A stretch of 64,000 nucleotides of DNA, from contig NC_089732.1 in the NCBI RefSeq assembly GCF_035083965.1, forward strand, positions 10,121,424 through 10,185,423, in the 5' to 3' direction. The DNA is from Branchiostoma lanceolatum (Eukaryota; Chordata; Leptocardii; Amphioxiformes; Branchiostomatidae). The position numbers and the translations under genes are program-made. The notes under the pieces are model-generated. The model saw only the letters and a list, made by a program, of their open reading frames with translations. It was not told the origin of the DNA and made no database searches. Shown here one piece after another: positions 22,252 through 61,000 of this stretch (its first letter is position 1; each line of letters opens with the position of its first letter).

Positions 22252-22518
22252 CAGGACAGGGATACAACACAGACACCACTGATTCATTATTTCTGTTAGT
22301 CCGACACTGAACTAGTCTTGGTGAATCTCCAAGGCGGAACCTGCATTTTCTGACGAGCAGGTGTCCTATCATCAAAGGGTTGTGTATGAGGGAATTGTGC
22401 AGTCAAAATAAGTTAAAAGGAAAATATGTTACAATGTGCCCTACCAACATCTACTTGGAGATTTAAGCCTCGATGCCCCCAACATAGGGAGTACTTAGCC
22501 CCGTGTGGCAAAATGTGC

Positions 22519-22528: not shown

Positions 22529-22594
22529 TTCATTCATTCATTCATTCATTCATTCATTCAGTCAGTCAGTCAGTCAGTCAGTCAGTCAGTCAGT
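22529..22594. repeat. Compound microsatellite (TTCA)n then (GTCA)n
   Basis: About eight TTCA units switch by one base to about eight GTCA units with no interruption, immediately after the ATG10 poly(A) signal. The homologous place in the duplicated copy near 27310 lacks it, so it expanded after the duplication or was lost there. Confidence 0.85.
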
Positions 22595-22895
22595 TGAACA
22601 TTAGCCATGTTGCTACAGATGGAGAAGAGCAACTTGCTAAGAGCATAAATACATGGCACCTCTAGATATTGCCAGTTTCTACTTTGTTGAAGAAATTCAA
22701 GATGTTCAAATGACAATATGAATCCTTTGAATTTTCCAATGCTCTCTTATAAGTGCAATGCGTAGACATTAAGGAAGCCATCCTGGTAAGAAAGAGTATG
22801 AATATATTTTTCAATAAACAAATAACTGACCCTACTGAGTTTTATTTATTTCCTCATCACAACAGAAAGTTGACAACACATTTGACACTGCATCC

Positions 22896-22901
22896 TTTAT
22901 T
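22896..22901 (-). terminator. Poly(A) signal of DED-3CxxC gene A
   Basis: The plus strand reads TTTATT, giving AATAAA on the minus strand ~590 bases after the stop. The sequence around it (AATAAAGGATGC) is conserved at 27635-27640 downstream of gene B, which supports its use by both copies. Confidence 0.6.
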
Positions 22902-23486
22902 GAAATTTACCAACAAATTCTTCAGCCATTGATATAGAACATACAGTAGTGACACCTATCTGCTATGAAATGACATAAAGCCTGTCACAAGTTAATTGTT
23001 GATATTCATAATTCACTGATGATAGAACTTGAAAAACTTGTTAACATCAAACTAAACCTTTTAAATTTGACCTTTATTTGCCTACTTGCGGCTTATGGAA
23101 TGTTTATTTGATCATATCGGAAGGTCTGACAAAGAATTACTAGTATTACATTTGTATTCACACAGTGCATGGTAATGAATCTTCAACACACTGCATACCA
23201 GAGGAAAAGACACAAGTCAATCAGCAACACTGAAAGCATACCCCAGAAGTCCACACACCTTCCTAGGGCATTTGTGGGCATTTTGTTGTTCTATACTGTA
23301 CATGTATATAATGTATTTGCAACCTATAAATCAGACACAGATTTTACCAGAAAAATTCCATGAAGAGAAAAAGGCTGATCTGCCCAAAACATTGAGACTT
23401 AACTAGTGTATGATTTGGTAATCATTTAGTGATGAATGCATCCTTTACAAAAATCGTACATGCTTTTATATGACAGAACAGGATAT

Positions 23487-26062
23487 TTAATCCCTAACCA
23501 TCTGCCTACAGATGCCCAACTGACATGCTTCACAAAGCTCAGCCACTTCCTGATTGCTTTTCATATTTGACTTTTTTTGACCTTCATTCAGCTGCCTTGG
23601 CAGAGTGTCATCGGTATAAAACTTCTCAAAGATCTTTTTCTGGAGATTCTGCATTACTTTAACCATCTCATCCCTGTACCACTCAGGAGGCTCAAAGGTT
23701 CCGAGATGTTGGCAAGGTCCACATTTTTGCCCTGGTAGGAACATTCTCACTTCACCCACTTTCTTCAACCCTTGTCGCTGCAGACGGTAGTGGAAGATGA
23801 CTCGTCCCTTTATGGAGGTCCAGGTGTTTTCACAGTTACTGCACTCAAACCGAACCTGCCGATATAAATGTGACAACAACATAAAAGGTCTTGAATTGCA
23901 GCTAACTATCAATTTATATTTACTAATTCAATACATCGGTGTTACTTCACCCACAAGGCCCAAGGGAGTCAATATTGTGTGTGTGTATGTTTGTGTGTGT
24001 GTGTGTGTGTGTGTACATGTTTGTGTGTTTATGCGTGTGGATGAATATAAAACTAGGAATAATGTGTGCCATCCGATGTGAAGGTGAACATTGTAAGACA
24101 AATCATGCAAATCAGGGCCACATTTACATAATTTATGAAGAAATTCTAGTAGTCTTCTTTGTTAAGACTTTCATACTTTGAACAACTTGTGTTATTTGTG
24201 TAGAGAAGATGATCAACTGAAATGATTCATGCTAATGACATTTGGATAATCAATGGGAAATATTTATGACAGTACTTGACTCAAAAAGCTTGATACATGT
24301 ATCATTTGTCAAAGGTATGAGGTCGTGGAACTCTACGTTTTGGAGTTTGTTTTGTACAAAGAAGTCAGCTTGTTTTCATTCTTAAATCTGACCTTGGCTT
24401 TGTCAGTGAATTGCTTCCACCCATCATTTCTGGCTTGGTTGATGTCAGGTAGGTCATAGGCCTCAGTCAAGGTCCAGTCGTCTTCGAACACTGTACAGAT
24501 CTCTGTTTCAAATACTTCATTCCAGTCTTCTGGTGCTCTACCCACTGTCATGTCGTTTCCTGTTTAAAGTATTTGCAATATTGAATTATCACATATTGAA
24601 TTATCAATTCTGATTGTTGCATGGTGGTGATGAGTGGTGACCATCCAAGTGGGCATAAGGTGACCAATATGGCACCCTCTGACAACCTAAAAGCTGGTGT
24701 TTACAGAGACATTCTGTACTGATTTCTCTAATACCAACAAATTACATTGGACTGGCCTTGCTACACTTACCTGGGATGAATGTTGGCTAAGACTAAAATC
24801 GAAAAATCCTCATCATTTAAAGAGAGGAAGTTAATCTATTTGCTAGTTGATAGATGAAATGTGTAACACTCACCATCCTCAAATGGCCCATCCTCCTCAG
24901 ACTCAATACTGTGAATCCCGCTAGCACTAGTCTCTGATTCAACTTCATCACTGAGTGATGACGATGATGAATCTGTATCATCTGCTGCAGTTTTTCCCCA
25001 GTCCTTTGGTAAAGCAGTAGCTGTAGAATACAAATTTCATGGCTTGAGATTCTCAGGATGATTGCGAACAATGTCAGAAGAGACAATGACAAGATTGAAG
25101 GAAATGATTGATGAGTATTCACTCACATAATCCTAATTATCCTCTCAGTCAAAAGGGTTTTCGTATCAATGAAGATGGTACCATAGTTGAAAACATTACT
25201 CAAACTGAAATGATCTGAGACTCACCATTCTGAAATAGGCCAACCTTCTCCTCACTGCACAGCCCACCGCTGATTTGCAGTGACCCATCGTCACAAGGTA
25301 CAATGTCACTGGATTCCTCTGATCTGCCCTCATCACTTGGAACTCTAGCTAACTTTGATGAAACATCATCTGTACCTTCTCTTGCAGGGCTTTTCCAGGG
25401 CTGTGGAAGAGCAGCAGCTATGATAAAAAGTTGTTATACATTAATTTTATAGGCTGAGGCGTTCAATAAGATTTTTTGTACTATTAACAATAAGATTTTT
25501 GTACCTGTCAATGAAAGATGTTTTTGCACTATTGACAGGATGGCCATAATCCTGTCAGTCCTAACCCTAACTCCTTATATAACTTTAACCCTGAGTATGA
25601 TCTTGTAAGATACATGTATGTCAATCTTAAAGATGATATCTGTATATCTCACTGGCTAGCTGCTGACATAAGGTGTGCCCAAGTCTGTAATGGCATTTTG
25701 TTGTCACTGTAGATTTTTAAACGTTCACCGCCTTTAACATGATCAAAAATGCACCTACCCTCTTTTTTCTCCACATCATCAGCTTCAGCTGCTAATTGTG
25801 CTTTTTTGAGGGCTCTCAATACATCCTTCAGTAGGCCGAGGTTTCCCGGGCCTATATTGCCATCAGCTTCCAGCATGTTGAAGATTTCATGTGGTGTTGC
25901 ATTCTGAACTCGTCCTTTAGCAATCAGATCGTCAGTAATCATCGACTGTCGCAAGCTCTCTACTTCATCCTCAGACAAACTTGCACTGATCCTCATGTAC
26001 AGCTTGTTACGATCGGAAAGCTTCAGCTTGGCAGGTTGCAGTTCACCCTCTCCAGACTCCAT
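23487..26062 (-). CDS. Death effector domain-3CxxC zinc finger (RTP4-like) fusion protein, gene A
   Basis: Exons, read on the minus strand: 26062-25759, 25417-25226, 25020-24874, 24559-24393, 23855-23487. They join without stops to 392 residues; phases are 1,1,1,0. Residues ~15-95 match a death effector domain: two early helices around [18 protein letters not shown], then [20 protein letters not shown] and [10 protein letters not shown] followed by ADDVE, much like the FADD DED. Residues ~102-215 are two related linker exons (AALPQPW.. and TALPKDW..), rich in Ser, Asp and Glu. Residues ~220-392 match receptor-transporting proteins: [21 protein letters not shown], then CSNC, CGPC and CEAC pairs with FHYRLQRQG and FEPPEW, ending [10 protein letters not shown]. 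Known: RTPs help traffic GPCRs, and vertebrate RTP4 is interferon-induced and antiviral; DEDs assemble death and NF-kB signalling complexes. No C-terminal membrane segment is present. The start at 26062 has a good context (ATCATGG); an upstream in-frame ATG at 26083 is weaker. The fusion is supported by phase and frame only; a separate short transcript starting at 24551 is the alternative. Confidence 0.8.
23970..24028. repeat. (GT)n microsatellite in the last intron of gene A
   Basis: GT-rich repeat with TATG and ACATG interruptions between the two zinc-finger exons. The matching place in gene B (28680-28740) holds only a degenerate GT-rich tract. Confidence 0.7.
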
Positions 26063-26261
26063 GATGGTGATCCGACTATGCATGAAAGAAAATTGGTTAT
26101 TAATAGCTTCCTGGGGGTCGTTTTCGTCAGGAATGACCAACGTTGTAACGAATTGGGCTTGGGACACAAGACACCGATTCCACCCTCATGCCATCTGGTA
26201 CCGACCACAAAAAACAAACTTTTCTACCGTGCCGTACATGTAAGTGTACCCTACCAGGTAA

Positions 26262-26455
26262 CGCCCGAGAAGACGATGAAGTTGTTTCCTCCGTGTGTAG
26301 CAACTAAAAAGTCACTGCGTCAGGTCGATCGCAACACAAAAGGTGTGTTGAAGTTAATACCCAATACATGTAACCTTTGACAGCTAGTGGTATGGCCAAC
26401 CAGAACCTTAACAGGTGATGTCATTTGTTTAGACAATGTCACATGATCAAGTTCA
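26262..26455 (-). promoter_or_regulatory. Duplicated upstream block of gene A (presumed promoter/5'UTR)
   Basis: The block lies 200 bases upstream of the DED start codon on the minus strand. It shares ordered words with 29905-30118 upstream of gene B: CTGCGTC, then GCAACA, then AAAGGTGTGTTG, CCTTTGACAG or CTTTGACAGG, AGGTGA, and CATGATCA. Because both genes carry it at the same relative place, it probably contains the shared promoter or first exon. No TATA box is evident. Confidence 0.5.
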
Positions 26456-26653
26456 GTATCCTGGCAATAACAATAGACCAAGCCCTTTATTTCTATTCCA
26501 TCGTGCGGTACCAATGGTCCTTAGTTTGTCCAAACATGTGCCATTTGGACAATTACAGAGACCTAGACAAGCTAATGACTGCTAGAGTTTCAGGGACATG
26601 AGGGAGTTACTCTAGTATGGATATATCTATATGACTGCGCTAGCGTTTGCTTC

Positions 26654-26686
26654 TACTAGACCCCAACCAAAACCTCTGCTTGGAGA
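26654..26686. mobile_element. Right-end remnant of the TACTCTCC MITE family
   Basis: The words ACTAGACCCCAACC and AAACCTCTGCTTGGAGA match the right arm of the element at 9695-9884. Only one end remains. Confidence 0.55.
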
Positions 26687-27016
26687 ATTTGTACGGTTTT
26701 GTGTTACAGTCATGAACCCCACTGAGAGCATCACATCTCTTTGAAATCTCGACACTCTGAAACGCTATCTCCTGCGTTTTGAGGGGACAATTTTGCTGGA
26801 AAAGTAAGCTAAGTTTAATGACATCTCTGAAAAAATACAGAAGGGTTCAGCTTGCTTGAGTTTTTGGGGGCGACGCCCTCCCGACATATTCTTCGCCGGA
26901 GGCACGACATGCTCCCCCGGGAGAATTTTGAAATCTCGATCTTGACCCCCTGAAACGCAAATTCAATTTGGGCATCATCACACAATCTTTCCATCCCTCA
27001 AAACACACTCATTTAC

Positions 27017-27060: not shown

Positions 27061-27634
27061 CGAAATACAAGGACACCTCTGATTCATCATTTCTGTTAGT
27101 CAGATGCTGGACTAGCCTTGGTGAAGCTCCAATCTTATGATGAGCAGTGGTCCTAGTGTCTACGGAAAGGGTTGTGTATGAGGAAAGTCAAGTCAAGTCA
27201 AGCTAAGTCAAAATTGTTAAAATAAAAGGGGAATATGTTACGATGTTCCCAACCAACACTTACTTGGAGATTAGCCCTGATACCCCAAGGACAGGGATAA
27301 TATTGATCCAAAGCCTGGCAGAGCCCAGTCAGTTGAACATTAGTCATGTTACAACCGACGAAGAAGGGCAACTTGTTAGGAGAATAAGTACATGACACCT
27401 CCAGATAAGTGACAGTTTCTACTTTGCAAGAAGAATGTTAAAAATTAATGTGTATCCATTGTACTGTATGTTCCAACGTTCTCTCAGAAGAGCAATGCTT
27501 AGATATTAAGGAAGCCACCCTATTTAATAAACTGACCGATAAACAAACAAGTGACCCTACTCGTATTGACTTTTATTTGTTTCCTCGTCACAAAATAGAG
27601 TTGACAAGATCTTTGAGCCTTTGACACAGCATCC

Positions 27635-27640
27635 TTTATT
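27635..27640 (-). terminator. Poly(A) signal of gene B
   Basis: TTTATT on the plus strand gives AATAAAGGATGC on the minus strand, the same context as downstream of gene A, ~545 bases past the stop. Confidence 0.6.
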
Positions 27641-28183
27641 GCCATTTACCTACAATATTTCAGCCATTAACAGCAGTAATAACCTTTAATCCCAACTAGA
27701 TACAACTGTTGTTACAATATTCACTAAGCTCTGCTATGACAAGAAATATCAGCCTATCACAAAGTGATTGTTATTCAGATAATTTTCAAAAAAATCCACT
27801 CACTTCACTGATGATGGAAATTGTTAACAACTTTAAAACATGTATAGTTATCGTTCTGCGTTTGAAGTTTCATTTTTGCCTACTTGTCGCACATGGCAAG
27901 ATCTTTGATTTGAGTATATAGGAAGGTGTGACTGAGATTTATGAGCAGTTGTGGGCATTGTGTTACTCTGTGCTGTACATGTGTATTTGAAACCTATAAA
28001 TCAGACACTAACAGATTTTACCCAAAAAATTCCATGAAGAGAAAAAGTTGATTTGCCCAAAACATTGAAAATTTGGCATTGTATGGTTTGGTCATCATTT
28101 AGTGAAAAATGCATCCTTTACAAATTGTACATGGTGTTGTATGACAGTACAGGGCCACAATTCAACACTTCATAGAGAAGTAT

Positions 28184-29248
28184 CTAATCCCTAACCATCT
28201 GCCTACAGATGCCCTTCTGACATGCTTCACAAAGGTCAGCCTCATGGTTGCTTTTCATATTCGCCCTTCTTTGACCTTCATTCAACTGCCTTGGCAGAGC
28301 TTCATCGGTGTAAAACTTCTCAAAGATCTTTTTCTGGAGATTCTGCATTACTTTAACCATCTCATCTCTGTACCACTCAGGAGGCTCAAAGGTTGGGAGA
28401 TGTTGGCAAGGTTTGCATTTTTGCCCTGGTAGGAACATTTTTACTTTACCCACTTTCTTCAACCCTCTTCGCTGCAAGCGGTAGTGGAAGATGACACGCC
28501 CCTTTATGGAGGTCCAGGTGTTTTCACAGTTTCTGCACTCAAACCGAACCTGGTAACATAACAACAACATAAAAGGCCTGGAATAGCTGCTAGATACTGA
28601 CTTATATTTACTTATTCACACATCCGTGTGAAGCATTCTTTTTTTTTTTGCCTCTCCCCCTCTCTCTCTAGTTCTCTCTCTGTGTGTCTAGATGTGTGTT
28701 TGTGTAAATGTGTGTGTGTAAATGTGTATCTTTGTGTTTGAGTGCCTATTTATGCACTGTTATCCACAATCAAGGCACATCGATTGGATCAAGGAGCATT
28801 ATTGTAATGTATAGAAAAGCAGATATGGGAATAGAAAGAGAGGAAACCATCTGAAAACATAACTGTAATGTCAGTGTTGACATACCTTTGATTATCATTA
28901 AGGAGTATCATCTACCATAACGTACAGGTAACATTCATATCAAATATTCTTCGAGAACTGTAACGTTAAAACCAAGAACCCTTTCTAACTTTCGGGTGCC
29001 ATCCTAACCCATAAGGCCATCGTGGCTGTTACATAAATAACGTTACAAAGAAGTTTCTGTGCTCTTTTCATACTTAATTTGAATCTGACCTTGGCTTTGT
29101 CAGTGAACTGTTTCCACCCGTCATGTCTGGCTTTGTTGATATCAGGTAGGTCTTCTTCGACAGTCAAGGTCCAGTCGTCTTCGAACACTGCATGGATCTC
29201 TGTTTCAAACACGTCATCCCAGTCTTCTGATACCCCACCAACTGCCAT
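28184..29248 (-). CDS. RTP4-like 3CxxC zinc finger protein, gene B (no DED)
   Basis: Two coding exons on the minus strand, 29248-29090 and 28549-28184, join in phase 0 to 174 residues. The first exon is exactly the length of the matching part of gene A (53 codons). Seen: [21 protein letters not shown], then [13 protein letters not shown] and the C-terminal [15 protein letters not shown]. This is the 3CxxC zinc-finger layout of vertebrate RTP3/RTP4; length and order match RTP4, but there is no C-terminal membrane anchor. Known of the family: RTPs chaperone GPCRs to the surface, and mammalian RTP4 is an interferon-stimulated antiviral factor. The start has an excellent context (GCCATGG). A splice acceptor lies 22 bases upstream (CTTCCTACAG, exon from 29270) and the leader between holds an in-frame TGA, so no DED can be joined in this frame; the gene must have a noncoding 5' exon. 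Paralogue of the zinc-finger half of gene A. Confidence 0.88.
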
Positions 29249-29904
29249 GGCTGTTACTTCTGATCAGTTTCTGTAGGAAGTACATGTACATATATATCAC
29301 GAGTGTATCATGGAAGCTCAGTTGGTAGTAATCATAGTGCAAAGCTAAACTTTATTCCAACACTAAGGTATACACGGATCATATTTTCAACGATTACTGT
29401 CGCCTTCTTCAGGATCAATAATGACCAATCACTTCCGAATATCATGAGTGTGTTGGTATGAACAGCCTGACCTCTATGAATCTATTTCTCAGAGATGGAA
29501 GAAGTTTATGTGTATTATGTTTTAGTCGTTGCTCATGACTTTTTAATACCCTTCCGTGCAGAAAATGTCCAGGTGGCTGCTACTTCCGTATTGTAACGGG
29601 ATGCGTTAAAATACAGACTGGTTCCTTCCTGTTGTTAGTGTTTTGAGCAAGACCAAATAGTCGTGCAATAAAGTTCTTCTATAAAATGCAGCAGGAAGCC
29701 GACTAATGGGCAATTTACAAAAAGCACCACGGTATTCTGGATCGCCTTACCTGGGCAACGTTACGTCTATTCCACCCGGAAGTCCAGGACCCCCCTACCA
29801 TTTTTCTTGCAGTAATGTAACGTTTAGTACACATAACTAGTTAGAGAGAAACTTTTAAGCTGCCAAACAGTGTACCACTTACTTTACGTAGTTGACGCCA
29901 CTAA

Positions 29905-30118
29905 ATACGGTCTTCCTTCTTCAGTGCACCGTCACTAAAACATCGCTGCGTCACGAAGTAGCAACAGGAAAGGTGTGTTGGACGATGTAATTTCATATCC
30001 TAGATAAACAACACCTTTGGCTTTGACAGGGAAGTAGCCAATCGGCACTTGAAAAGGTGACTCATTTGAATACCAGGTTTCGACGAAACTTTGGCGTCAG
30101 CACAACATGATCACGGTA
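29905..30118 (-). promoter_or_regulatory. Duplicated upstream block of gene B
   Basis: Homologous to 26262-26455 (see there). It contains a CCAAT box at 30038-30042 and a perfect AP-1 consensus TGACTCA at 30058-30064; at the same place copy A reads TGATGTCA. A noncoding first exon of gene B is expected in or near this block, but I cannot fix its ends. Confidence 0.45.
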
Positions 30119-30235
30119 CGCAATATTACATGTATAAAGTTCGAAGTCCTGGTGGTAGCACAAGACTGAAACATTTGAAAATCTGAAAACAAGCTTTCGG
30201 CGACAAAACTAAAAGGCTGAATCTCTCACCTTTCT

Positions 30236-30345
30236 ATATGCAACGCCGCACAATACGCTCTTCTTCCTTTGTGTAAAGCGACTTAAAAGTTACTGCGTTT
30301 GCAACACTAAAGGTGCATTTAACAGCATTTTAAAACTGCATGAGA
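30236..30345 (-). promoter_or_regulatory. Orphan third copy of the upstream block core
   Basis: The words TACTGCGT, GCAACAC and TAAAGGTGCATT occur with the order and spacing seen in the upstream blocks of genes A and B. No RTP or DED exon follows it before copy B begins. It is either a leftover of a lost third gene copy or an alternative promoter of gene B. Confidence 0.4.
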
Positions 30346-30450
30346 AAAACAGTATACAGGTCAGTCTTTTTACCATGCCTATTAGATTGTTCTTGTCCTA
30401 GTATAGAGATAACGTTATGTATGTTATCTGTACAGTGTACCTATGTATAG

Positions 30451-30480
30451 TTGTGTGTGTGTGTGGGGGGGGGGGGGGGG
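30451..30480. repeat. (GT)n-(G)n tract
   Basis: About seven GT units run directly into about 18 G residues. No gene is nearby. Confidence 0.8.
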
Positions 30481-31035
30481 CGACGAATGTAAGCAACCTG
30501 CAAGCGGTCTGCCTGTTTGCAGCATAGAGTAAGACGTCGAATCAGCACCAGGGCAAACATGTATGCACAGGATGCTTTAAATCATACTTATCAATCGTAG
30601 CCAATAAATTGTCTTCCTTCTTTTATAACAAAAGGGATTATTGAGGGTTCAACATACATATAGGCGCCTCTGCTGGGATCAACACTACGTTCATTGCAAG
30701 TCAAGACGATTTCAAAGAGTTGCTTGACGCCAGGCATCATTTCCTTAGGTTTGTAATAAGATTAGAAGCCATAAGAGCTTTGTTATGCCATCAAAGTTAC
30801 CTTTATTGCATACTTTCCCTACTTCTCTCCGCTCAACAATGGAAAACAACACATTGGCTGCAATCGGGCAATTGTCACCTCTCCGCGTCTCAAGGGCGTC
30901 ACTATGCGGATTACAAAAGAATGGCACATAAATAATGTTGGCAATACGATTTTACATTAGATATTTAAGAGCGACTCCTAGCAGTCGATGAAATAAATGC
31001 CACAGATTGACTAAGGCTTCATAATAGCTGCACAT

Positions 31036-46725: not shown

Positions 46726-49700
46726 TATGTGCGTGCGTGTGAGATAGAGATAGTTCATTTTATCGTTGCTGTGAATGGCTTGACTTTCTTTTTTTCATCA
46801 GGAGTGACAGTGTCGCCAGGGTCCTACACCACGGTGACTGGCTTCGTGGGAGACACCGTCATCCTCCCCGCCAGTCACGGCCAGAACTACACCGTCTTCG
46901 CCGAGACCTGGAACAAGATGATCGGCGGCGTGCACGGAGTCAGGCAGGCCGTCTTCATGTTCTCCCCGGTCACCAACACCACCATGTCCCTGGGCCCGCT
47001 GAAGGGACGGGCGGAGCTGGGAACGAGGGGGTCACTAAAGGTCACCGACGTCAGACGAGAAGACGAAGGGCTCTACGTCCTCACCAGCCTGCTGGATGTG
47101 ATTGGACAAGAAGAATACTACGTCATCTTGAGGATACTGTGTAAGTGGCCACTTAAACACTAGTGATTGGGTAGGGCACATGTGCTCGACTGTTAGTGAC
47201 AAGGCGGTCATATGGACTTTCATTTCTATGATAAACCCCGGGGAAATCAACGGGAATGTAACAATTTCCACCTGTGATTATGATATGCCTAACATCAAGG
47301 CGATCTTTGACATAGAAATGAGCGACATTCCGTAGTGACAGTATGAGAGTTGAGTAATGAATACTCGGGAAGTGTTTTGTTCCCTTCGTTGAGTCTGAAG
47401 ACATGGTTGTCAGTCATGGTTCTACATGTAGATTGCTAGTATATAAACAAGGGTAAAGGTAAAGGTAGTCCCATAGCCTTTCTAGGATCGCAGGGGCAGT
47501 GGGTTGAGTGCTGAGCTGAGGAAAGTCCTGCAAAGTGCATCCTCTGACACAACATGTCAGAGGATTCTAACCCAGGACCTCTGGGTTCTGGGTCAAACAC
47601 CCAAACCGTTACGTCAGCACGACGGCACAGCTAGTATAGATCCAAGTCTAAAACATCTTATTCTAACAAATTTCCCATGTACATATGCATTTAATGGTAT
47701 TTGTTACAGTAGATCTACATCAGCTTCTTTAGTGATGGTAAACTTATTCTCTAAGGTGTACAGTGTGCATCTGACGATATCATTCTCCTTAGGTATTCCA
47801 GATTCATGAATCGATCAACAATCCCTCTTGTGTGTTGCTCACAATAGATCGTGGACAACAGGAGACAATGTTATCGAAGCACAGGGCAGACAACTTGGAA
47901 TCTACAGTCCCCAATGCTTGTAGTATACGTCACCTTGCATCTGTTGTGCTACCTATACAGTCATTTGTTACTGTCAATAGCCATCTTTGGGTGCAGCATA
48001 ACGTCCACAATCTGTGACAGCATGGATTAGCTTTGCAAACGTATCCCTCCAGGTGTTCCAAGGTGATTAGGTGTCCGGTTCAGTCCGTTCATGACACCGA
48101 AAGAGTTTAACTATCAGGCTATACAACAGCATGGTGTGATTTAAAGCCTTGTATAGCCGTGTAAACTGTATACGAGAAGAGGCCAAAAGACGCCGTTAAC
48201 ATGTTATTACCCGTGGGACAGTACTTACAAACCCGTCGCTATTTTGTGTTTCACGTCAGAAACAGCGCTTAACAATCTCTTTCCCGCAGTTTGATGAGGC
48301 GGTCTTTCGTTTTGGCAAGATGCATATGCTGCTGCATAGATAGGTTTCCCACAGGTTCGTGGAGTGAATATATGACTATGAATGTACAAAATACAAGCGG
48401 TTGTTGTGGACATTTTACATGCTGAATAGGACCTGTCTTAGAGACTGACGAATGATGCTTTTACGAGGCAACGGCATTTTCTGGTCATTCGGTGGAAACC
48501 GGACATTCAGAGGCTTTGATGGTTCCACTCAGAATACCATCATCCACGAAATCTTGTCACCATCGCACTTTGGCGGTCACAACATATGTCGGAACTTGAA
48601 GTGAAGCAAATCTAACGACTTTGGTCGTCACGCAGTTCAAACTCAACCAAGCTTGATGAATTACTAAGTTGTTGTTTTTTTCAACCAGAAACTGCCTAAT
48701 AGGTGATACATCGAATACATTTGACAGGCTGACCATTTATCTAGTATTAAATATATTACAATGTATCTGAAACTAAAAGAATCTGTTAACTTTTTTTAAA
48801 TTCCACAGCAAGACCTGGTGTAAAGATTGACTCCAAGAAGACAGTGGTGGCAGTCGAAGGGTCCAACGTCGTGCTAAACTGCTCAGTAAACGACAGCAGC
48901 ACACTCATCCATCCGCCATCTTGGAAACAAGATGGCCACAAAGTGAGGGGCAGTCACGTGGTTACTGGGAACGTGATTCGGGGCAAAGGTTACGTGTCCC
49001 GTCTCGTTCTCTACGCAGTGAAGAGGAACCAGGGAGGGAACTACACCTGCCAGGCCTTGCACCGTCACGGGAGAGAGTCAGATTACGTTCAGCTGGAAAT
49101 AAATTGTAAGCATTGACTTCTGATTCAGTTTTCACATGTAGAAGACGATGCCGAACAAATCAAGTACTTGAAGTGAAAATTGCATATTGCTGTTAACCAG
49201 ATAGCTAATGGATCGATAGCTTTTATATTACATGAATACAACACTTACAAGTTGAGTGACAAGACAAAAAAATGTACCGGTATTGTGTTTCTCTTCATGA
49301 TTGACACAGATTATGGGAAATTAGAATACTAAGTACATACTGCATTGTTACTCACAGGCTCCTAATGTCAGAGATATGCTTCCCGAAGGAACGGGATATT
49401 AGCACTCTTAGAAGCACCTCAACACATGGACGATTCCATTTATCGATCAACTGAAAACGAGCCAAAACATTTACTTGACATTCGTTGATGAATTGGTTGC
49501 TCACCCTGGTTTGTCTGTAAAAGGAAAAGCCAATCGTCGCACGTATGTCATTTGTGGCAAAAGGTCACACGGCTGTGATCGCTCAATTCCCCAGGCGTCA
49601 AACAGGGTCGATGGGGGTCTCATTAGAACGTTCTTCACACAAAAGTGGTGGTTGACTGAACGAACAATGGCAAGTTCACGAACTCTATTCGCAGTCAGCG

Positions 49701-52700
49701 GAGGAAGAAGATAGAGTCTGTTGTAATCCTGATGTTATTAAAAACCCGGGCGGGTGGTCGGCTACATACTGCCGTCTCAGTCCTTGAGGCGCTTGATTAA
49801 CTCGGTTCCACTTAAGTACCTCAAAATGAAACATCTACATCTTTTCATTCTGTCATTCTCACATGTGGCTATGGATCCAGGTGGTGTCCTCTATCGGTAA
49901 TGCTGTATAAAGCGACGGTAGACTCTACTTTTCAGTAAATCTTATATGCTGGAGACAGACACGACTTTCTCAATGCTAAGGGGGAAATTCTTTGGCATAT
50001 CAATTCCATCCTCTTGGAATAATTGTAAACAGTGGTCTTTTTGATACATAAAGAAGTGGATTGCATTTCTTTGTAAAAAAGAAGGTTTGTTGTGGGAAAT
50101 AGGGTGTCCTTTATTCACTGTACTTCGATTACCAAATTTTACCATGTTGTTTTAAACAAAGTTATTCGCTAATATTCTTACAGATCCAGGAAAAGTCATA
50201 AACGTAACCAACGTCAGCACCGATAGGAACACGGTTGCTCTTCGGTGCCTAGCGGAGGGGAAGCCAGCCCCGAGCCTGGCCTGGTATCGGTCAGGCTTTC
50301 CTCAAGCCATCCGGTCTCGACAGGGAGTCGAGAAAGTCGAGCAGCTCGTCCTGACCATTCCCAAGTTCCACCGGAACCAGAGCGGGGAGTATTCATGCGT
50401 AGCCGGCAACGGGATAGGCGGGCCGCACTCCACCGCCGTCTACGTATCGTTCGTACCCAGGCAACAGATGAGGAAACCAACGCCCGGGAAAAACAGGCAA
50501 GGTATTGACACGACAGGAAGATGCATGGCCAGCTAAGCCTGGATATAGGCATAACGTACCGTTCTAAATCATTGTTATTGACCTGCCAGAAGCAATTTCA
50601 GCATGTTATATGCTGACGGTACAAGAACATAGGGGATATTGATGTTATAAATCCTACTGCCAAATACTCTCTTCCGCAGATAGGCTTCGGTGTCGTCACC
50701 AGGGAAGATATCAGGCAGCATATCAATCATCCCAATACATGTACCATAAAACATCTGCGCGGGGACACGAAAATAGCCGCGCATTAGGTTTGAGAGTGTT
50801 TCAACTCCCTGTATCTTCCTCACGGAAGTTAGCTGCTTGTTTGTATTCCCAATTCGTAGCCAAGATCTTATCAAGCGTACCGGAGCGGACGTTAGAAGTT
50901 TTTACGACTCCCCGAACTGACTGTATTTCATCTGAAACTTGTCAACCTGTCACTAATGGCCGTTTTATCAATCCCTTGACGTGAATGTTAAAGAAGCGCT
51001 CATGGTGCCCACTTGCAAAAAGTATTTGAGAAAAAAAGCTTCATCCTCTCAAACTACTTACCGTACTCCCCAAACCGACTGCATTTCCTTTGAAACTTGT
51101 CAACATGTCACTAATGGCCATTATATCAATCCCTTGACGTGAATGCTAAAGAAGCGCTCATGGTGCCCACTTGCAAAACGCATTTCGAAAAAAAAGTTCC
51201 ATCCAGCTAGTCACCGTGCTTCTTCACACACAGAAGAGGACTACGTATCAAGGGTTTTATCTAAATCTTCATCCGACGTTTAGAATGCCAGTACATATTT
51301 TAACAGTCAACCGCGATACACAGAACTGACATCCTTCAAAGATATCTTTCCTGTCATCACCAGTTTCTTTGTTTTACCATTTTCACTGCATTATCTACGT
51401 CTTACAGGCTGACGCTTAGCGATACCAGAAGCTAAAGCTATAGAGATGTTATCAGAAGCAGAATGAAGTTGCCAACCGTTTGCATGAAGCTGCGACGAGA
51501 ATCACTAAACCTCTTGCGAAACGTAGAAGGCAATGGGAACGTCTTAAAAGCTGTATTTGTTCCGCCAGTGATTTCTTCAACCTGATTGCACCTTGCTGAT
51601 GATTACCTGAATTAATCTGTTTTGCGGAAAAGGGATATCTTTATGGAATAACACTAGCTGAATATGAAATCAAAGTCACAAAGTCATGGTGTCATTTGGG
51701 ATGCAAAAAGCTTTTACACTTGTTTCAACATAAAAAAACTTTGGAACAATTACTAACCTGGCGTTCCGTTGAAATACCTAAAAGTGGAATTCTGTAATTA
51801 GACTATGTTTATCTGAGTACTAACCAAAATAAATATTGTGACTAATTTTCTAAAATAAGCAGTGACGTAAATACTTTACCAACTGACGTCTAATGATTAT
51901 GAGACTGCCATGGTATCTCTTGACGTATACGTCTGTTTTCATGCTACGTTTATCTGAGTGCTTTACCAAAGGCACTGAAAATTCTGCAAACCGGTGAAGC
52001 GGTAACGTAAATCCTTCACCAACTGACGTCTAATGATTATGAGACTGTCGTGGTATCTCTTCAAACATATGTCTGTTTTCAGGCTCGGTTCTTGTCTGGG
52101 AAAACCAGCTCCTGCGCGTCATCGTGTTCTCCGGCATTGCCGCCTCCTCCGCCTGCCTGCTGCTGGTGATACTGCTGACGGCATTGGTTCTTTATCGGGG
52201 AAGGCAAAGGAGTCGAGCAGAGCGAGACAGCGATGATCCTCAGGCAGCTCCAGAAGCTCCGAAGAGGCCGACAGAAACAAATCCTGACGACTGCAAGAGA
52301 CCAGATGTTTGGCACACACCGAGCATCAAGTCCATCCCAGCTTCCATGTGTAGGTCACATAAAGCAGCCAACTTAAGTAAGTAACACGTTCTGTTTCGCC
52401 CGAAGCGATGTAGTGTCTGATGCATGATGTTTCACTGCGGCTTCTTGACATCCACTAAGCCCTCGAGAACATGAAATGGTATTTGAAGATCATGCCCTGC
52501 ATCTGTTTAGAATAGACAAGACTCTCGATGAGACTTCCAAGTTCAAAATTTTAGGAATCCTCCTTTGATTTTGACAGTTTTCAACCCATTGTTTCTTTTA
52601 AATTTTTGGTCGCCGGTGCAATGATGGTAATAAAGAATAAAAATTGAGAATTTCTTAAATCAGGTCATAATCAGAAACTGTCTCCGTCTGTTGACATTAC

Positions 52701-53295
52701 AGCACTCATCATGATAAAAGTTGAGGATAAGTCTACACGTGGATGTTTGTTGAGAACGAGAAAACAATCTTTAAATGTATACGTTTTCTAATAAAGTTGT
52801 CACCACGTTGCACTGAGAATACACATAAAAATGTTGGGCCTTTTCTCTCCAATCCATCAAAAGCTTCATTTCCTTTTGTAGTTTCATACTTCATATTATA
52901 ACAAAATATTGTAAAGTGAGGACATATTGCACGGTAAGTACAAAGGTCGTCCTAACCTTAGAAAGACTAGTATTCAAGCGTGAAATTGTTTTTCACGTTT
53001 ACCTATCCTGGCAACTATTCCACAAAATTACAGGTGGCACTAATGCGTCCCTTTAGAATATAGCGTACATTTTATGTCTATGAACAAATATGAAAAGGGA
53101 CACGGCTAAATGGGCAAAGTTGTAGTTACATGCCCTGATAGGTATAAGCGGTAGATGTTAGATATCCAAGAGACGACGTGATAGCATGATGATGTTTACA
53201 TATGCGTTTTGTGTGTGCGTGTGCATGCGTGTGTGTGTGTGTGTGTGTGTGAAAAATGACGATGGAATGTGTCACACACACACATACACATTTAC

Positions 53296-53328
<33 letters not shown>

Positions 53329-53882
53329 AGGAAGGAAGAAGAGAGTTTGTAGAGCAGCATTTATTTGCATATATTGACGGCTGTTGTGTCCTCGTTACAG
53401 GAAGGTATGTGGGGAAGGTGGTCATTCCTTACGAGTCAGGACAGCCCGGATTTCTGTCCCTCAAGATCAACGACACCGTGCAGGTCCTGAAGGCCAGTTC
53501 CTCGGGTTGGTTTTACGGCACCAGCGACGGCAAAATGGGCGCGTTCCCCGGTGCGTGTCTGGACATCACCAACCGTAGCTACTGCAACGGCACGGCCTGT
53601 CACAACGGCGAGCCAGAAACGGCGGACCACGTCCGAGCGCAGGAGAGACCCGACGGCCAAGAAAACGCTCCACGCCGTGGCAACAACAAAGATAACTTCG
53701 ACACACATCACTCGAGTCCGGACACTGAGAAAGAATACTTCGTAATTCCACTACAAAGACAGTCGTCTGAAATGTCTGAGGAAAAGGCGTGCAACTGCCT
53801 GGAGTGTAGAGGTACGGGCTGCTGCGACGAGGACAAACGAGAAGCAGCAAAACTAAGAGAGCGAAATCAAGTGCTAGACTAG
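42369..53882 (+). CDS. Type I membrane receptor: three Ig-like domains, one TM, cytoplasmic SH3 (Ig-SH3 gene 1)
   Basis: Exons: 42369-42423, 46802-47140, 48809-49105, 50184-50501, 52083-52376, 53401-53882. They join to 594 residues; every intron is phase 1 and GT..AG. Residues 1-18 are a hydrophobic signal peptide (FCAALFLTAF). Residues 19-131 form a V-type Ig fold with ETWNKM and REDEGLY, but both canonical cysteines are missing (VILPAS; LYVLTS). Residues 132-230 are a C2-type Ig (VVLNCSV..W..NYTCQA). Residues 231-318 are a second one (LRCLAEGKPAPSLAWY..GEYSCVAGNG). A transmembrane segment lies at ~349-373, followed by basic YRGRQRSR and a possible SH3 ligand PEAPKR at 393-398. Residues ~437-485 form an SH3 domain (IPYES, FLSLKINDTVQVL, GWFYG, GAFPGACL). 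The tail is acidic with a CNCLEC..GCC cluster. Start: two adjacent ATGs at 42369 and 42372; either works. An Ig ectodomain with its own cytoplasmic SH3 is not an arrangement I know from vertebrates. The ligand is unknown; adhesion or immune recognition is inference. Confidence 0.87.
43602..44141. repeat. Three tandem copies of a ~180 bp unit in intron 1 of Ig-SH3 gene 1
   Basis: Each unit carries GGGCATTG, then AGTGCCCC, then CCATTGACCCTAGACAATCG, CCCAGGTTATGTTATG and TTTTGGGAGTTGT or a close variant. Units start near 43602, 43782 and 43967. No coding frame is shared. Confidence 0.85.
45391..45422. repeat. (TCTG)n/(TG)n microsatellite
   Basis: Short TCTG and TGTG repeat in intron 1 of Ig-SH3 gene 1. 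Confidence 0.7.
46633..46741. repeat. (GT)n microsatellite before the V-like Ig exon
   Basis: About 110 bp of GT repeat with ATAT, ATG and GCG interruptions end 60 bp before the acceptor of exon 2. A coding frame running through it is an artefact of the dinucleotide repeat. Confidence 0.9.
47446..47625. repeat. SINE-like interspersed repeat, copy 2
   Basis: Starts GGGTAAAGGTAAAGGTAGTC and continues through GGGGCAGTGGG, GAGGAAAGTCC, TTCTAACCCAGGACCT and GGTCAAACACCCAAACCGTT. It shares its start with the copy at 37048 and lies in intron 2 of Ig-SH3 gene 1. Confidence 0.5.
50907..51208. repeat. Two tandem copies of a 158 bp unit in intron 4
   Basis: The words GTCACTAATGGCC, ATCAATCCCTTGACGTGAAT and AAGAAGCGCTCATGGTGCCC recur 158 bp apart with few differences. 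No coding potential. Confidence 0.85.
51803..52084. repeat. 141 bp tandem duplication that includes the splice acceptor of the TM exon
   Basis: Units 51803-51943 and 51944-52084 both end with CTAATGATTATGAGACTG, GGTATCTCTT and GTCTGTTTTCA. Only the second unit ends in AG and is the acceptor used for exon 5; in the first the matching bases are AT (51941-51942). Confidence 0.8.
53203..53322. repeat. TG / CA / GA microsatellite cluster before the SH3 exon
   Basis: A TG tract (~53209-53250), a CA tract (~53272-53291) and a GA tract (~53298-53322) follow each other within 120 bp, ending ~80 bp before the SH3 exon acceptor. TG and CA arms are complementary and could pair in the pre-mRNA. Confidence 0.85.
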
Positions 53883-54249
53883 CAGTCTGCAACGCATGTA
53901 AATAATGCTGCAGAAGATTCCTATGAGATGTATGATAAAGGGAATGGCTTTCTATTTTGTAATGTGTAAATTGTTGGACCACATCTGACGGTCTTCATTG
54001 TAATGTGATCAGGTCAAGCGCAAGTACGTACTTTCCTTCAATGCATCTGAACCGCATCTGAAATGTTGCTGCACTCGAAACATTTGTAGGGCAAACATCT
54101 CTCAGTGGAACAAATCATGCAACACGCTTGATGCACAGTGTGCAGTCTTGATGTTCACAGATGTATGTATGATGGCCTAGAAACTATGTGTTGACAAGCT
54201 TAGTCGCACGTCCTCCTACGTAATGTGACGTTGCCACTGAGTGGTAACA

Positions 54250-54255
54250 AATAAA
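54250..54255 (+). terminator. Poly(A) signal of Ig-SH3 gene 1
   Basis: AATAAA 368 bases after the stop codon; the first canonical signal downstream. Confidence 0.5.
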
Positions 54256-57200
54256 AAGAACGTCATCCTATCACGTCGAAAGCAAATACTCAGCAACTAA
54301 GACCCTCGTCGTGCAGATGACAATTGTTATGAAATGTCTTTGAGAACTTTGATACCAAGTAAAAGTAACTTTACCCGAGACTATTAAAGTGTGGCAGACG
54401 TAAAATGGCAGAGGACTTGTATTTGTTTTTGTCTATTGATATTTCAGAAATAGAGACAGAAGTTGTGTCTATTGAACTTTACATTGACATTCAGATCCAA
54501 GTTCTGGTGCCTATATGGCTTTTAGGAAAGATCAAACGACGTCAAGAGAAAATTGTCTTCTTTAGCATAGACGGCGTTCGGTGCAAGGTGCTGGCTAGGC
54601 TTTTGGCACTCCATACACGGACGGAATGATGAAAGATTGCGGCTGTCATTCCAGAGTCTATCACGTAGGGGTGATGCAACACTGACGAGACCATTAGAGG
54701 CCCCTTGAGTGCTGCTGTGTCACAGAAGCATGAAAGAAATATGCCCATCGTATCTCATGTATCTGTCAGGATGCCAATATATGAGCTTCCCCGGAAACTG
54801 TACACCTACCATTAGTGAAACCAAGGGAGCTCTAGCTCTTTTGTGGAAAATTGCGCTCTAAGATATAACGTGACCACCCAGGTACACTCTAACTACACGC
54901 AAGGGCATATGTCATGGTTAATGCACTGTCAACATAGAAGCTAACATTGTACTCTACCCATCTCAAAGCCACTCATTATGCCCCGAAGTCATACTTTTAA
55001 TCTAGCTGTTTTTCATGTCATCTTCCTTCGCTTCGAACGCTTGAGAGAGTCGAATGCATCTATTTTTCATTACTAAGGCGCAAGAGCCATTTCATAAGTC
55101 ATTTCATGCAGTGACAAAGGTCGTCCTCTTATCGGCGAATATAAATCACTCTACTTGAGGAAGAAGATAGGGTGGGTGTTTCCAATGCAGTGGCTGGCAT
55201 GGCCTTTTTGTGTGTACTAGAATAGAATTGCCAAATATATGTTTTTGTGACAGCATTCAACTTTGGAAGTTATATGTTATCAGAAACTGTATGAATGATG
55301 TCTCTGTATTCCCTCATATGTTTAAAAGAACTATCCTTCATATGATGATGTCTTGCACCGAACTACGGACGTTCACAATTTTTGCAGCCTCAAGGCATCA
55401 TTCAGAACATTTAGATGCTATAATTCAAAGACTTTGCTCGGATTGTATAGACGCTTCTTCTTAAGTCGATAAAAGCCAGTATAAAATTTTAAGAACACAC
55501 ATGATATATTAATATCTTCATGAATGAGATGTTAGCTAAACTACGACACTTAATTTTGGGGGACTATCTTGGAGTTACTAAAATGGTTCAAACTTCCCTC
55601 GCAGCACCTTATATTAGTATCAGGGGCTTAAAAGGTCATAACCTTTGACCCCACGTAGTGGCGCCATAAACACGGCGGTCTTCGCGAATGAAAGAGAATT
55701 AAATGTACACTTTAGTATATTTCATACCTAATCTACCAAAGATGATCAATTTGTTGACAAAACATCAAGTTAAATATCTACAATTGAAGGCATATTTCAA
55801 GAGAATGTAAAGTGGGGAGGTGAGCATCGTCTTCCCGGCAGCAACGAGCAGTCTACATATATACAGTATTTCAAATGTTTAAATGTAGACCTTACAAATA
55901 CTGTAGCCTGCTCTTTATGGGAGATTATGACACGACACAATACAAATCAGCCCCAAGCACACCTTAGACGTCACCAAATGGACATTTAAAACTTGTGCCA
56001 GGAAACTTTCCCGCCGCCAGAAAGCTATCGCAGCTGACCCCTGGATGATAGAGGTCAGACGTCGTGCACCTGATAACTCAAACATGTCGAAACTTGTTCT
56101 TCCTTGAGTTTCCACCAATGTGTATAGTTACTCGCGCTAAACACACCTTTGTTGAACTAATCTTGTTAGGACTATACACGGTACTCTCACGGCCAAGGTG
56201 GAGGCCTAAACGGACATTCAAAACTTCCCGTCACTAGAAATTTATATGACCTCTGACCTCAGGATATTAAAGTTCATCAACCAGATCCTGATTACTCATT
56301 CGTGTCACTTGTCCAAACTTGTCGAAACATGTTCTTTCTTCGAATTTGTTTTATCTACTATTATGAGACGCGAAGTGTCTTTACTCTTAGTCAACCATCG
56401 CTAATCAGAGTTCACCTCACAAACACTGAATCAGCAAACGAACCATCTACTCAACATTCTACAGACGGCAATCGGAACAGAAATGACAAATAGTTTGGTA
56501 GATGTCGCCGAACTAAATCATATCAAACCCAGTGATTCAATCTATTCATACAACATAACCCCTCAATACGATTTGGCGAAGACGTCCTGGCAGATCTTAA
56601 GTAGTCTTAATAGAATTGCTCCATTCCATAACCGCATACACTCAACAAGTCACCTCATAGCTATGGTGATAATAGAGAGGCTGGACCATCATCCGCTAAG
56701 ATACACGGCTTTCTCGTCTCCAGCAGGGCTTTGTGTAAGATGGACGTTTAAGATTCATGGTGGAATGAGAAGTTGTTGAGGGCAAGGTATGGGCGCTATC
56801 TGAACATGTACAGATCTGTTCGCTATCGTCTTAGCCGCGACCTGACGACAGAATCTGACGCACGGCTGCGAGGATGATACAAAATAAATGCTGGTACTCA
56901 TTGACCCTGTCGTCCATGGAGATAAAGCAGTCCCGCTTAACAGCGGGAGGCGTTTGATTTGAAGTCGTGTTGGACAAGAGGTCGCCACCGCGGGAAGATT
57001 TATTTCTGCGATAAGGCAGGTGCTGGAGACGGGCGATTATTTAACAGGGGAAGGAACAGGAAAGGTCTTCCTCTGGGCAAGTAGTGTATGCATGTGCTCG
57101 ACGGACCGTGCGTGTTGGGATTTCTGATAAACCACCGCCGCTCCGAGCAGAATTCAATGATTTTTGTGAAAATGCTTGGTTGCTGAGAAGATTTGAATGC

Positions 57201-57476
57201 ATCATATTTTTCTCTGATATGAGGCAATTCTTGAACATTCTTAAGGCGTTTTGACGACTACTTTTGTGTATAGACATTGCATGATTAACGGGTTGTTGGT
57301 AACCGGGTGCCATTGCCATAAACAAGCCGACTATAACTTCCCTTGAATCCATATTTTTCTTTTAAAAATCACTTTGCTTGGGGAATAGAACTAGTCGTCG
57401 ATAAAAAACGCTTAACTGACACAAATATATAGTCACCTACAGCCAGATGGACACGACGTCAGCGATATATATGACT
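54256..57476. other. Region between the convergent Ig-SH3 genes
   Basis: No supported gene. It holds copies of a dispersed repeat (listed separately). Short frames here lack domain features. Confidence 0.5.
55960..56345 (-). repeat. Two copies of a dispersed repeat, inverted relative to one at 63690
   Basis: Read on the minus strand, 56115-55960 contains CATGTTTGAGTTATCAGGT, TGACCTCTATCATCCAGGGG and GGCGGCGGGAAAGTTTC. The plus-strand segment at 63690-63830 has the same order (CATGTTTCGACAC, TAATCAGGT, TGACCTCTACATCCAGGGG, GCGGCGGGAATATTTC). A weaker second copy is at ~56228-56345. Confidence 0.6.
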
Positions 57477-57482
57477 TTTATT
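57477..57482 (-). terminator. Poly(A) signal of Ig-SH3 gene 2
   Basis: TTTATT on the plus strand gives AATAAA on the minus strand, ~545 bases past the stop of the paralogue. Confidence 0.4.
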
Positions 57483-58026
57483 CATTTTTCCCCAAAACAT
57501 GTGACAAAACATCAACTACAGGCACTACTGACATTTTCTTAAAGAGCAACTTTCACACAACAAATATAGACACTTGGCAAGCTGTCTCTTGTTGCAGAAA
57601 GTGCCCTTTTGGTCATAGTGTTTATCATACACTCTGTTCTCGTGAAAGTAGACTGATTAAGTACAACAAAATGACGTGACGGAGTACATTAATGAATGTA
57701 AATTCTGGCCTATCTGTAGCGTTACTGATCATGTTACGGTCATTTGCTAACGCATCAAGAAGATAGCAATCGTCAACACGGTCTTACGGCAACCCCGAAA
57801 ATTTCCTCCAGAAGCGTCTCACAAGACAGCGTTGTTTACAGAGACAAAAGCAAACTCACAAATTGTACCATTTGAGTGTTACAAACAAGACAATGATACG
57901 ATAGTCATGCTGTAGCGTGCATTTACTAAAGAATGATAGAATAGATGTACGATTGTTCTTTTGGTCCGGAACTTTGCTTTTTTTACGAATGTTCTGCTAC
58001 ATTCTCCCTCCGCCTAGATCATGTCT

Positions 58027-61000
58027 TCACGATTCCTCCTCTGCAGTTTTCTCGCCGCTGCGTGTGTGCCGCGGGTGGGCCCTGACGTCATCGCCCGCCG
58101 ATCGTCGCGATATCCGGACCACGAGTGACGCCTGGTGACCTTGCCTCTCCACGTACTTGGCTCGATCGGTTCTCCTGTTGGCGCTAGTCCTGCCCGAAGG
58201 CTCCACGCACGTGGCGGGGAACACTCCCGATCTGTCCCCGATCGATCCGTACAGCCACCCCGACGACGTCTGATCGATAACCTCGACAAAGTCGTTAATT
58301 TTCAAAGACAAGAAGCCCGGCTGGTGAGAGTAGTAGGGCACGATGACTCTTGCAACGAACGTACCTGTGGAAAACACGAAATATCTTCACCCTAATAAAG
58401 AAACACTTCTCATACATAACGCATCATAGAGGGCAGGCAGAGCGCATATAGTCGCGACTGTCTTAAAGACATTTAGAAAGCAATCTACTGCCGGCCAGTC
58501 AATTTTCCCAATTATGGGAGAAGAGAAGCTTTCATTTGCTGTCAATTACTTCTACTGGCAAGCTCAACTTCAAAGGTAAGTTCTTTGGGGATCTATACAA
58601 AAGAACAAGTGCAAATTTTAACAAGCATGCACTGCATTCGCCTTTCAAGTACCAAGGTTTTTGAACTTAAAGTTCGACTGTTGGTGACTTCATCTAATTG
58701 TTAGTGTACCAGAGTAGAAAATGGATGTGAACTGAATACAAATGGATGTGAACTGAATACAAAAGAACATGAACTACATATCAAGTGCAGGTTTTAACAA
58801 GCACTGCGCTTGCCTTTCAAGTCCAAACTGTAAGTGCAACAAGTGTACCGGACTCCCATATATAGAAAAATGGATGTGAACTGAATATAAAAGAACAGGG
58901 GCTACGTATCGAGTGCAGATTTTAACAAGCACCTAACTTGCTTTCGGGTACAAAGGTTTTTGAACTTTAAGTTTGACTGTTGGGAACTTTATCGGTGCAA
59001 CTGTTAGTGCAACAAGTGTATCGGAGGATGTGAACTGAATACAAAAGACCGAGGACTTAATTTCAAGTGCAGATTTTAACAAGCACTTCACTTACTATCA
59101 GTATAAGGGATTTTGAACTTAAAGTTTGACTGTAGATGACTTTATTAAATTGTTGGCGCAACAAGTGTACCGGAGTAGAAAGGGGATGTAAACTGAATAC
59201 AAAAGAACATGGACCACATATCAAGTGTAGATTTTAACAAGCACATCACTTGCCTTCAGGAACAAAGGTTTTGAACTTAAGGTTTGACTGTGGGTGACTT
59301 AATCAAACTGTTAGCGTACCGGAGCAAAACATGGGTCTGAACTGAATACAAAAGAACAGGGACCACATATCAGGTGCATGCAGATTTTAACAAGCACTTC
59401 ACTTCCTTCAAGTTTAAGTACAAAGGTTGTGACAAAGGTTGTGACTGTGGGTGACTTTATTAAAGTGTAAGTGCAACAAGTGTACCGGACTAAAACATGG
59501 ATATAAACTTAATGCAAATGAACAGGGAATACACAGTGCATGCAGATTTTAACAAGCACTGCATTTGCCCTCAAGTTCAAAGTTTTTTTAAAACTTAAAA
59601 GCAAATTTTGATTGTTGGTGACTTTATCAAACTGTTAGTCTACCGGAGCAAAACATGGATTTTAAATATGTTATTTTGGCTTTTTCACGAAACTTACGGC
59701 ATTGATAGGTGACTCCATTTCGAGTGGGAAGCGGAGAATTCCTAAGATCTGCAGGGCATATTACTGCCTGTTCGTCATTCTCCTCCCAATCAGGAGTAAC
59801 CGGAAGTGACGTATCGTTCTCGAACTGTTCCATGGGAATGTTCTCCTGCTCCCTTTGAGCAGCGATGTACTCAAACTCCTGTTGGCCGTACACGCCAGGC
59901 CTTTTCCGACAGAAGATGAAGCCAGCTAGAAGTACGACCAAGAGGAGACATAGGGAAGCTGCAGCAATGCCAGCTGTCGTAATGACTTGGAACAGACTTC
60001 CTTCCTGTACACGGATAATCCCTGAGAGGGCAAAGGGGCGGAAATTAGAAGACAGTCCACCAAAACGAACCCAATCAATCACCAAACGCTCCTAAGGCTG
60101 TGGAGGTGTGCGGAAGAAAATGAGATTTTCTCAAGACGTGGCAATATGAGAGTCTCTTTTGTGAGGCTCTCAATCATTGTCTTGTGCCTCTTTGATGTCC
60201 CGCTGATGTTTTGATTCCAGATGTCGCGATACGTCTACCCTCGGGGAATAAAGCTACTATTCCACCCAGAGGCCAGATCACGAACACACCTGCCCAACCT
60301 GGCGTATTCCCAAGTTTCTTTTCTCTGTCAATGTGTCAGTGTATTACAGATTGCTCACTGGTTAGTATGTCGTACATCAGACAATCCCCTGTCAACACGC
60401 TATCGCAGTGTTCTGTCACGGTAGCTTTACTCGCACTATCTCCTCCGGGATTTTCAAATGCCAAGATGTTCTGATTAGTTCTGGTAGATTTTCTTATATC
60501 TAGCGTGTAATTGTCTGACGGTCGACATTGTAGCAAGTACGCAGTGCCCTTTGCCGTGCATACTGATACTGTGACTGTGATGTCAAAGCTGATTGTGTAC
60601 GGTTATGTATTGTCTCGCCAATGATTGTTCTGTATCATCACGTCAGAACAATCAATAGCAAGGTAATATCTAAAAGCTAATTGTGTACGGTTCGATGTTG
60701 TCTTGCTACTGATTTTTCCGTATCATCGACATGCGTCAGAACTCTTCAACTTCGTATTGTTTGTGGTGATATCATGCGATCTAGTTTCTTTTTCTTAAGT
60801 TTGGAATGGATTTTGTAGATTTAGTTTTGTGGGAAGTTACAGAATAAGGTGAGATAAAATTACCATTGCTTTCGGCTGCTTCCACAATCGTAACGGCTCT
60901 CTGGTAGATGGAGACGTAAACTGATTTGGAGTCGTCCGCGAGCTTGTTTGAAGCCTGGCACCGGTACTGCCCGCTGGTCCTGTTGTTGTGTTTAGATAGC

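Follow-up and report, generated by a model that had tools for sequence, protein, structure and literature searches.

A gene that would join a death effector domain (DED) to an RTP-type 3CxxC zinc finger can be read on the minus strand of the window, by which we mean the whole stretch of 64,000 nucleotides analysed here. An RTP-only paralogue lies upstream of it on the same strand. We refer to the two as copy A and copy B, and their features are collected in Table 1. Copy A is predicted to consist of five exons with GT-AG borders and phases 1,1,1,0, running from 26062 to 23487. The exon lengths of 304, 192, 147, 167 and 369 nt add up to 1179, corresponding to 392 residues plus a stop codon, and the joined frame contains no internal stop. 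An earlier, sequence-only reading had proposed these five exons with the same junctions, phases and stop-free frame, and splicing the sequence bore the model out; its figure of 393 codons agrees with 392 residues once the stop codon is included in the count. Copy B has an intact open reading frame, is offset from copy A by 4.7 kb, and its stop codon lies 2.1 kb before the DED ATG of copy A.

Table 1. Features of the two RTP copies and of other parts of the window (positions in the window; a slash in a splice-site motif marks the exon border)
Feature	Position	Strand	Remarks
Copy A, gene model	23487..26062	-	junctions 25759/25417, 25226/25020, 24874/24559, 24393/23855
Copy A, 5′ end, promoter/presumed untranslated first exon	26216..26427	-	homologous to 30068-29849; possible donor 26255 (CTG/GTAGGG)
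DED exon	25759..26075	-	presumed acceptor before 26075, ATG 26062, donor AGG/GTAGGT, phase 1 end
Linker exon 1	25226..25417	-	phase 1-1
Linker exon 2	24874..25020	-	phase 1-1; looks duplicated from linker exon 1
RTP exon 1	24393..24559	-	acceptor ACAG/GAAACGACATG; internal ATG 24551, kept in copy B
RTP exon 2	23487..23855	-	stop codon at 23487; the three CxxC motifs are all in this exon
Nearest two AATAAA downstream of copy A stop	23073..23108	-	hexamer starts 23108, 23078
Copy B, 5′ end	29849..30068	-	homologous to copy A; donor candidate 29883 (AAA/GTAAGT)
Copy B, exon 1	29090..29248	-	from conserved ATG 29248
Copy B, exon 2	28184..28549	-	stop at 28184
Ig matches (Pfam)	48790-49113, 50156-50533	+
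Ig matches (Pfam)	60784-61329, 62405-62950	-
SH3 match (Pfam)	53253-53879	+
SH3 match (Pfam)	58030-58386	-

Splice sites were ranked by a simple consensus score against the GT or AG sites of the same strand. On this score the four donors of copy A stand at the 99.1, 99.8, 99.8 and 98.1 percentiles among GT sites, and the four acceptors at the 91.1, 97.9, 80.2 and 95.0 percentiles among AG sites, the weakest acceptor being the mediocre one of RTP exon 1. The presumed acceptor in front of the DED exon scores 5.2 (89.9 percentile), and the DED ATG has an A at -3 and a G at +4. From these features we infer that the DED and RTP exons are joined in one spliced transcript. An alternative is that the region holds two transcription units, a small DED-only gene, which may include the linkers, and a separate RTP-only gene that begins at ATG 24551. 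The weak acceptor of RTP exon 1 would fit such an arrangement, as would the DED frame, which runs into a stop after 36 further codons, at 25649, when read unspliced. However, the phases match across the junctions; RTP exon 1 has no in-frame stop 5′ of its ATG and is in phase 1, as the junction requires. Nor does a canonical poly(A) signal lie between DED and RTP: AATAAA and ATTAAA are both absent from the minus strand between 26062 and 23495, whereas shuffled sequence would be expected to hold 2.43 of them (probability of none, 0.078); among 123 window pieces of the same length, 2 are likewise free of them. An ATTAAA at 23491 overlaps the copy A stop codon.

The DED was identified by Pfam (PF01335) at residues 22-99 of the copy A protein, with an E value of 2.9e-9 and a score of 37.5 bits that exceeds the curated cut-off of 35.9 by a narrow margin; the match covers positions 5-81 of the 82 in the profile. 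In a scan of the unspliced open reading frame the score was 38.7 bits. Pfam found neither a death domain nor a caspase or NACHT domain in the copy A protein. When compared with PDB sequences, the DED matched FADD best (E 0.0034), and all nine matches at E up to 1 were FADD. Modelled from its sequence alone, the DED exon gave five helices, the last one long, where a death fold has six, but at a pLDDT of 52.6 the model is too poor to be relied on. A fold search with this model returned 22 weak matches, none at E ≤0.001, among which DED proteins account for nine, including ranks 1 to 5; the best of them is the FADD DED at E 0.2. DEDs carry an RxDL motif, which to our knowledge is not universal among them, and the assignment made here consequently rests on the profile. 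FADD RRHDL aligns with KKAQL in copy A, where RxDL therefore reads KxQL, and because of this difference the chemistry of DED assembly may not be the same.

The 3CxxC zinc-finger module of RTP4 binds viral RNA or replicase. The C-terminal part of copy A matched Pfam Zn_ribbon_3CxxC (PF13695) at residues 269-384, with an E value of 4.8e-16 and 59.6 bits against a cut-off of 23. Counted from the conserved ATG, which encodes residue 218 of the fusion, the RTP module is 175 residues long, and its CxxC motifs are found at positions 58, 98 and 161 from the module start methionine (58, 98 and 160 in copy B). Both the spacing and the distance from the start methionine are similar in vertebrate RTP4, for which CxxC positions of 57, 95 and 157 are given in the accessible text of PMC12431671, and the positions are near cysteines 55, 93 and 154 that were mutated in human RTP4 (PMC10470548). 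Of the RTP and ZAR1 branches of 3CxxC proteins, this resemblance makes the module a candidate for the RTP branch, and it has the appearance of an entire RTP zinc-finger domain placed behind a DED. A single-sequence model of RTP exon 2 (pLDDT 40.6) was likewise too poor to be relied on. Using the same exon to scan viral contigs, we found three stretches that fit a pattern, none of which was confirmed as a relative.

The copy A protein ends 11 residues past the third CxxC motif, with no long variable region, and no transmembrane (TM) helix was found in it (maximum Kyte-Doolittle mean over 19 residues, 0.53). Compared with vertebrate RTPs it adds the N-terminal DED and the linkers, and compared with amniote RTPs it lacks the C-terminal TM anchor, a feature that does not define the family. 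Fish RTPs without a TM segment are described in the accessible text of PMC8172065, which also reports that mammalian RTPs do not need the segment for receptor trafficking or for their antiviral role. A human RTP4 from which the TM segment had been removed likewise retained RNA binding and antiviral activity, according to the available sections of PMC10470548. In the same sections, binding of viral RNA was low for mutants of RTP4 zinc fingers 1 and 2, but so was their expression, and the authors could therefore not judge the antiviral activity of these mutants; the third finger was dispensable.

Between the two domains lie the linker exons, whose combined product is rich in Ser, Asp and Glu (47 of 114 residues). 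Each end of one exon aligns with the corresponding end of the other, and the splice sites fall within these alignments (67 columns on the acceptor side, 45 on the donor side); the two exons look like a duplicated pair. A comparison of linker 1 with linker 2 gave a dN/dS of 0.857 over 44 codons, at which protein-level constraint is not clear. Their codon-usage scores are 0.02 and -0.06, whereas open non-coding stretches average -0.21 and -0.24, with maxima of 0.17 and 0.27; the linkers are thus above the non-coding mean yet within the non-coding range. This score discriminates poorly, as even the RTP exons, when left out of the training set, receive -0.04 and -0.06. The order of DED, linkers and RTP-type 3CxxC finger that had been proposed from the letters is thus supported by the Pfam results for both ends, with the DED above its curated cut-off, three CxxC motifs in the finger and an acidic, Ser-rich linker between them. 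The description of the finger as RTP4-like also holds, at the level of the zinc-finger module.

The two-exon protein of copy B matched Zn_ribbon_3CxxC with an E value of 3.4e-20, and all three CxxC motifs are retained in both copies. The RTP modules of the two copies share 147 of 174 aligned residues, with dS 0.239, dN 0.084 and dN/dS 0.352 over 174 codons; on this ratio, they are under purifying selection since the duplication. Heterozygosity in lancelets is a few percent, and we rejected misassembled alleles as the origin of the two copies since their dS is well above that level. Similarity between the copies is collinear over the 3′ flank (22272-22490 with 27072-27297, 22587-22930 with 27326-27668, and 23012-23139 with 27804-27941), the RTP exons and the 5′ end, so the whole gene, including its 5′ end, was most likely duplicated in tandem. 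The two 5′ ends agree at 62% over 228 columns, with a local score of 49 compared with maxima of 22 in 300 shuffles and 20 among 290 other pieces of the window. A third, weaker copy of the shared 5′ element is seen further upstream on the same strand, at 30242-30322, and may serve copy B as another first exon.

From the shared 5′ end to RTP exon 1 the distance is ∼0.6 kb in copy B and ∼1.7 kb in copy A, where the interval holds the DED exon and both linker exons. No counterpart of the DED or the linkers was found in copy B by tblastn. Local alignment to 29850-29250 also gave no clear counterpart, the score being reached by 13 of 200 shuffles for the DED exon and by 172 and 47 of 200 for the linkers; for 32500-30130 the corresponding numbers were 45, 76 and 95 of 100. 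Copy A intron 1, one of seven pieces aligned, was slightly above chance against 29850-29250 (2 of 200 shuffles), and intron 3 (24873-24560) showed no similarity to that interval (45 of 200). The stretches just upstream of the two RTP first exons (24873-24560 and 29850-29264) are dissimilar, marking where the DED-bearing segment differs.

Because the DED and linkers are found only in copy A, where they follow the shared 5′ end and precede the RTP exons, the DED most likely lies inside one RTP transcription unit, and the existence of an RTP-only copy with a common 5′ end strengthens the single-gene reading. Two separate units are also opposed by the position of the match to the copy B 5′ end, which lies upstream of the DED exon, and by the dissimilarity of intron 3 to the region in front of the copy B RTP exons. 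Copy B does provide a precedent for an RTP-only gene, with an ATG homologous to that of copy A; if its top-ranked acceptor is used (score 7.9, exon beginning at 29270), a TGA stands in frame ahead of this ATG. The contrast between this stop and the open copy A exon favours a single gene in copy A; it is suggestive only, since a minor acceptor in copy B (first exon base 29259, score -0.3) would leave the exon open in phase 1 and is the one that pairs with the copy A acceptor in a pairwise alignment of the exon starts. Taken together, these observations make two transcription units unlikely in our estimation.

Two further explanations concern what a single unit would produce. It could be that the DED and linkers landed recently in one RTP copy, giving a non-functional chimera that is now drifting, as might be suspected from a DED present in one of two copies and from linkers without clear constraint. 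Against such a chimera stand five open exons with GT-AG sites, a DED above the Pfam cut-off and an RTP part kept under purifying selection since the duplication, and we think this origin improbable. Alternatively, one gene may give both products, depending on whether its presumed 5′ untranslated exon is spliced to the DED exon or skips ahead to RTP exon 1; the DED would then be an optional targeting module. The donor candidates in the common 5′ end of both copies, the conserved ATG (24551 and 29248), the phase symmetry of the linker exons and a reading frame that is kept when RTP exon 1 directly follows the DED are all consistent with this. However, conservation of the internal ATG may reflect only common descent or constraint on the residue, and we give the production of both forms a reasonable chance, somewhat short of even. 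It is compatible with the single-gene explanation that we prefer: with linker exons of phase 1-1 and a conserved RTP ATG, a linker-less DED-RTP protein or RTP alone may come from this gene as well.

At the level of the sequence, the exons, their phases, the domains and a paralogue with homologous 5′ end and RTP exons but no detectable DED are established. On this basis we lean towards copy A being a real gene, in which a DED and two duplicated linkers lie downstream of the shared 5′ end and upstream of the RTP exons, and which would encode a DED-clustered RTP effector of 392 residues.

Death-fold proteins fused to antiviral-type domains have been described in marine animals, lancelets included (PMC8195603). 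The closest in layout are the DED-TRADD-N fusions of lancelets, bivalves, cnidarians and others, in which a DED at the N terminus likewise precedes a C-terminal part that varies. In those proteins TRADD-N lies between DED and effector, whereas no TRADD-N match was found in copy A by Pfam at E values up to 10, and because of this absence we liken copy A to them only in how it may work. According to the accessible text of the same paper, a second clade, that of DEDD2, has 46-71 copies in cephalochordates and is fused to OAS, STING, AIG, GBP and TRIM in species that are mostly unnamed; fusions to RLR-like and other RNA-directed domains occur in cnidarians and brachiopods; and the Branchiostoma partner in the NCOA6 clade is a WD40 propeller, in contrast to the zinc-finger module of copy A. 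The term ‘RTP’ is absent from its main text. In amphioxus, caspases that carry a DED and ASC-like proteins have been reported in novel architectures (PMC3196919). DED-NACHT genes have been reported too, and some transcripts matching predicted hybrids were recovered (PMC2575513). Copy A has the DED in common with the lancelet proteins of PMC3196919 and with FADD/caspase-8 adaptors; its C-terminal part is instead a zinc-finger module. Death and death effector domains are the most enriched among B. floridae dispensable genes in the available part of PMC12373286, and a gene of this type may therefore vary between individuals. In the literature searched we found no description of a DED and an RTP/3CxxC domain in one protein, and no paper on a receptor transporter protein in amphioxus. 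Within that literature, proteins that combine a DED with an antiviral-type domain are thus already known as a kind, and the DED-RTP pairing appears to be new.

By analogy with known DED proteins, the DED of copy A would join or nucleate death-fold assemblies of the FADD/caspase-8 type. Such assembly could concentrate the 3CxxC module at a signalling complex, and the RTP module would then act as a signal-gated or clustered RNA- or protein-binding effector rather than as a free RTP, the free form being supplied by copy B. The broader proposal, that an invertebrate chordate gated an RTP effector with a DED so that death-fold polymerisation forms a clustered antiviral or translation-blocking body, we regard as possible but doubtful.

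An RTP pair in a lancelet would push the RTP family back to early chordates, and the fusion would show a module of vertebrate interferon effectors wired straight to death-fold signalling in one lineage. If the DED-gated reading is true, the RTP family would predate vertebrates and copy B would represent the ancestral, ungated form. Copies A and B would also constitute a natural pair with and without the DED in one genome, and hence a built-in comparison for what the DED adds.

We also scanned the 5′ regions of both copies for regulatory motifs. No ISRE, relaxed IRF or NF-kB consensus was found in 26076-26900 or 29271-30700, and interferon-type control of the two copies is consequently unsupported. 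The possible chordate-specific defence factor suggested in the earlier reading is a conjecture. One palindromic GAS-type match, counted on both strands, occurs at 30087 (copy B), compared with 0.70 expected. Rfam gave no match at gathering scores over the window. An Ig-like stretch without a Pfam match is seen at 46770-47138. Beyond it, the region 48790-62950 holds two receptor-like exon sets, one per strand, with Ig and SH3 matches in Pfam and, by eye, a hydrophobic stretch between them.
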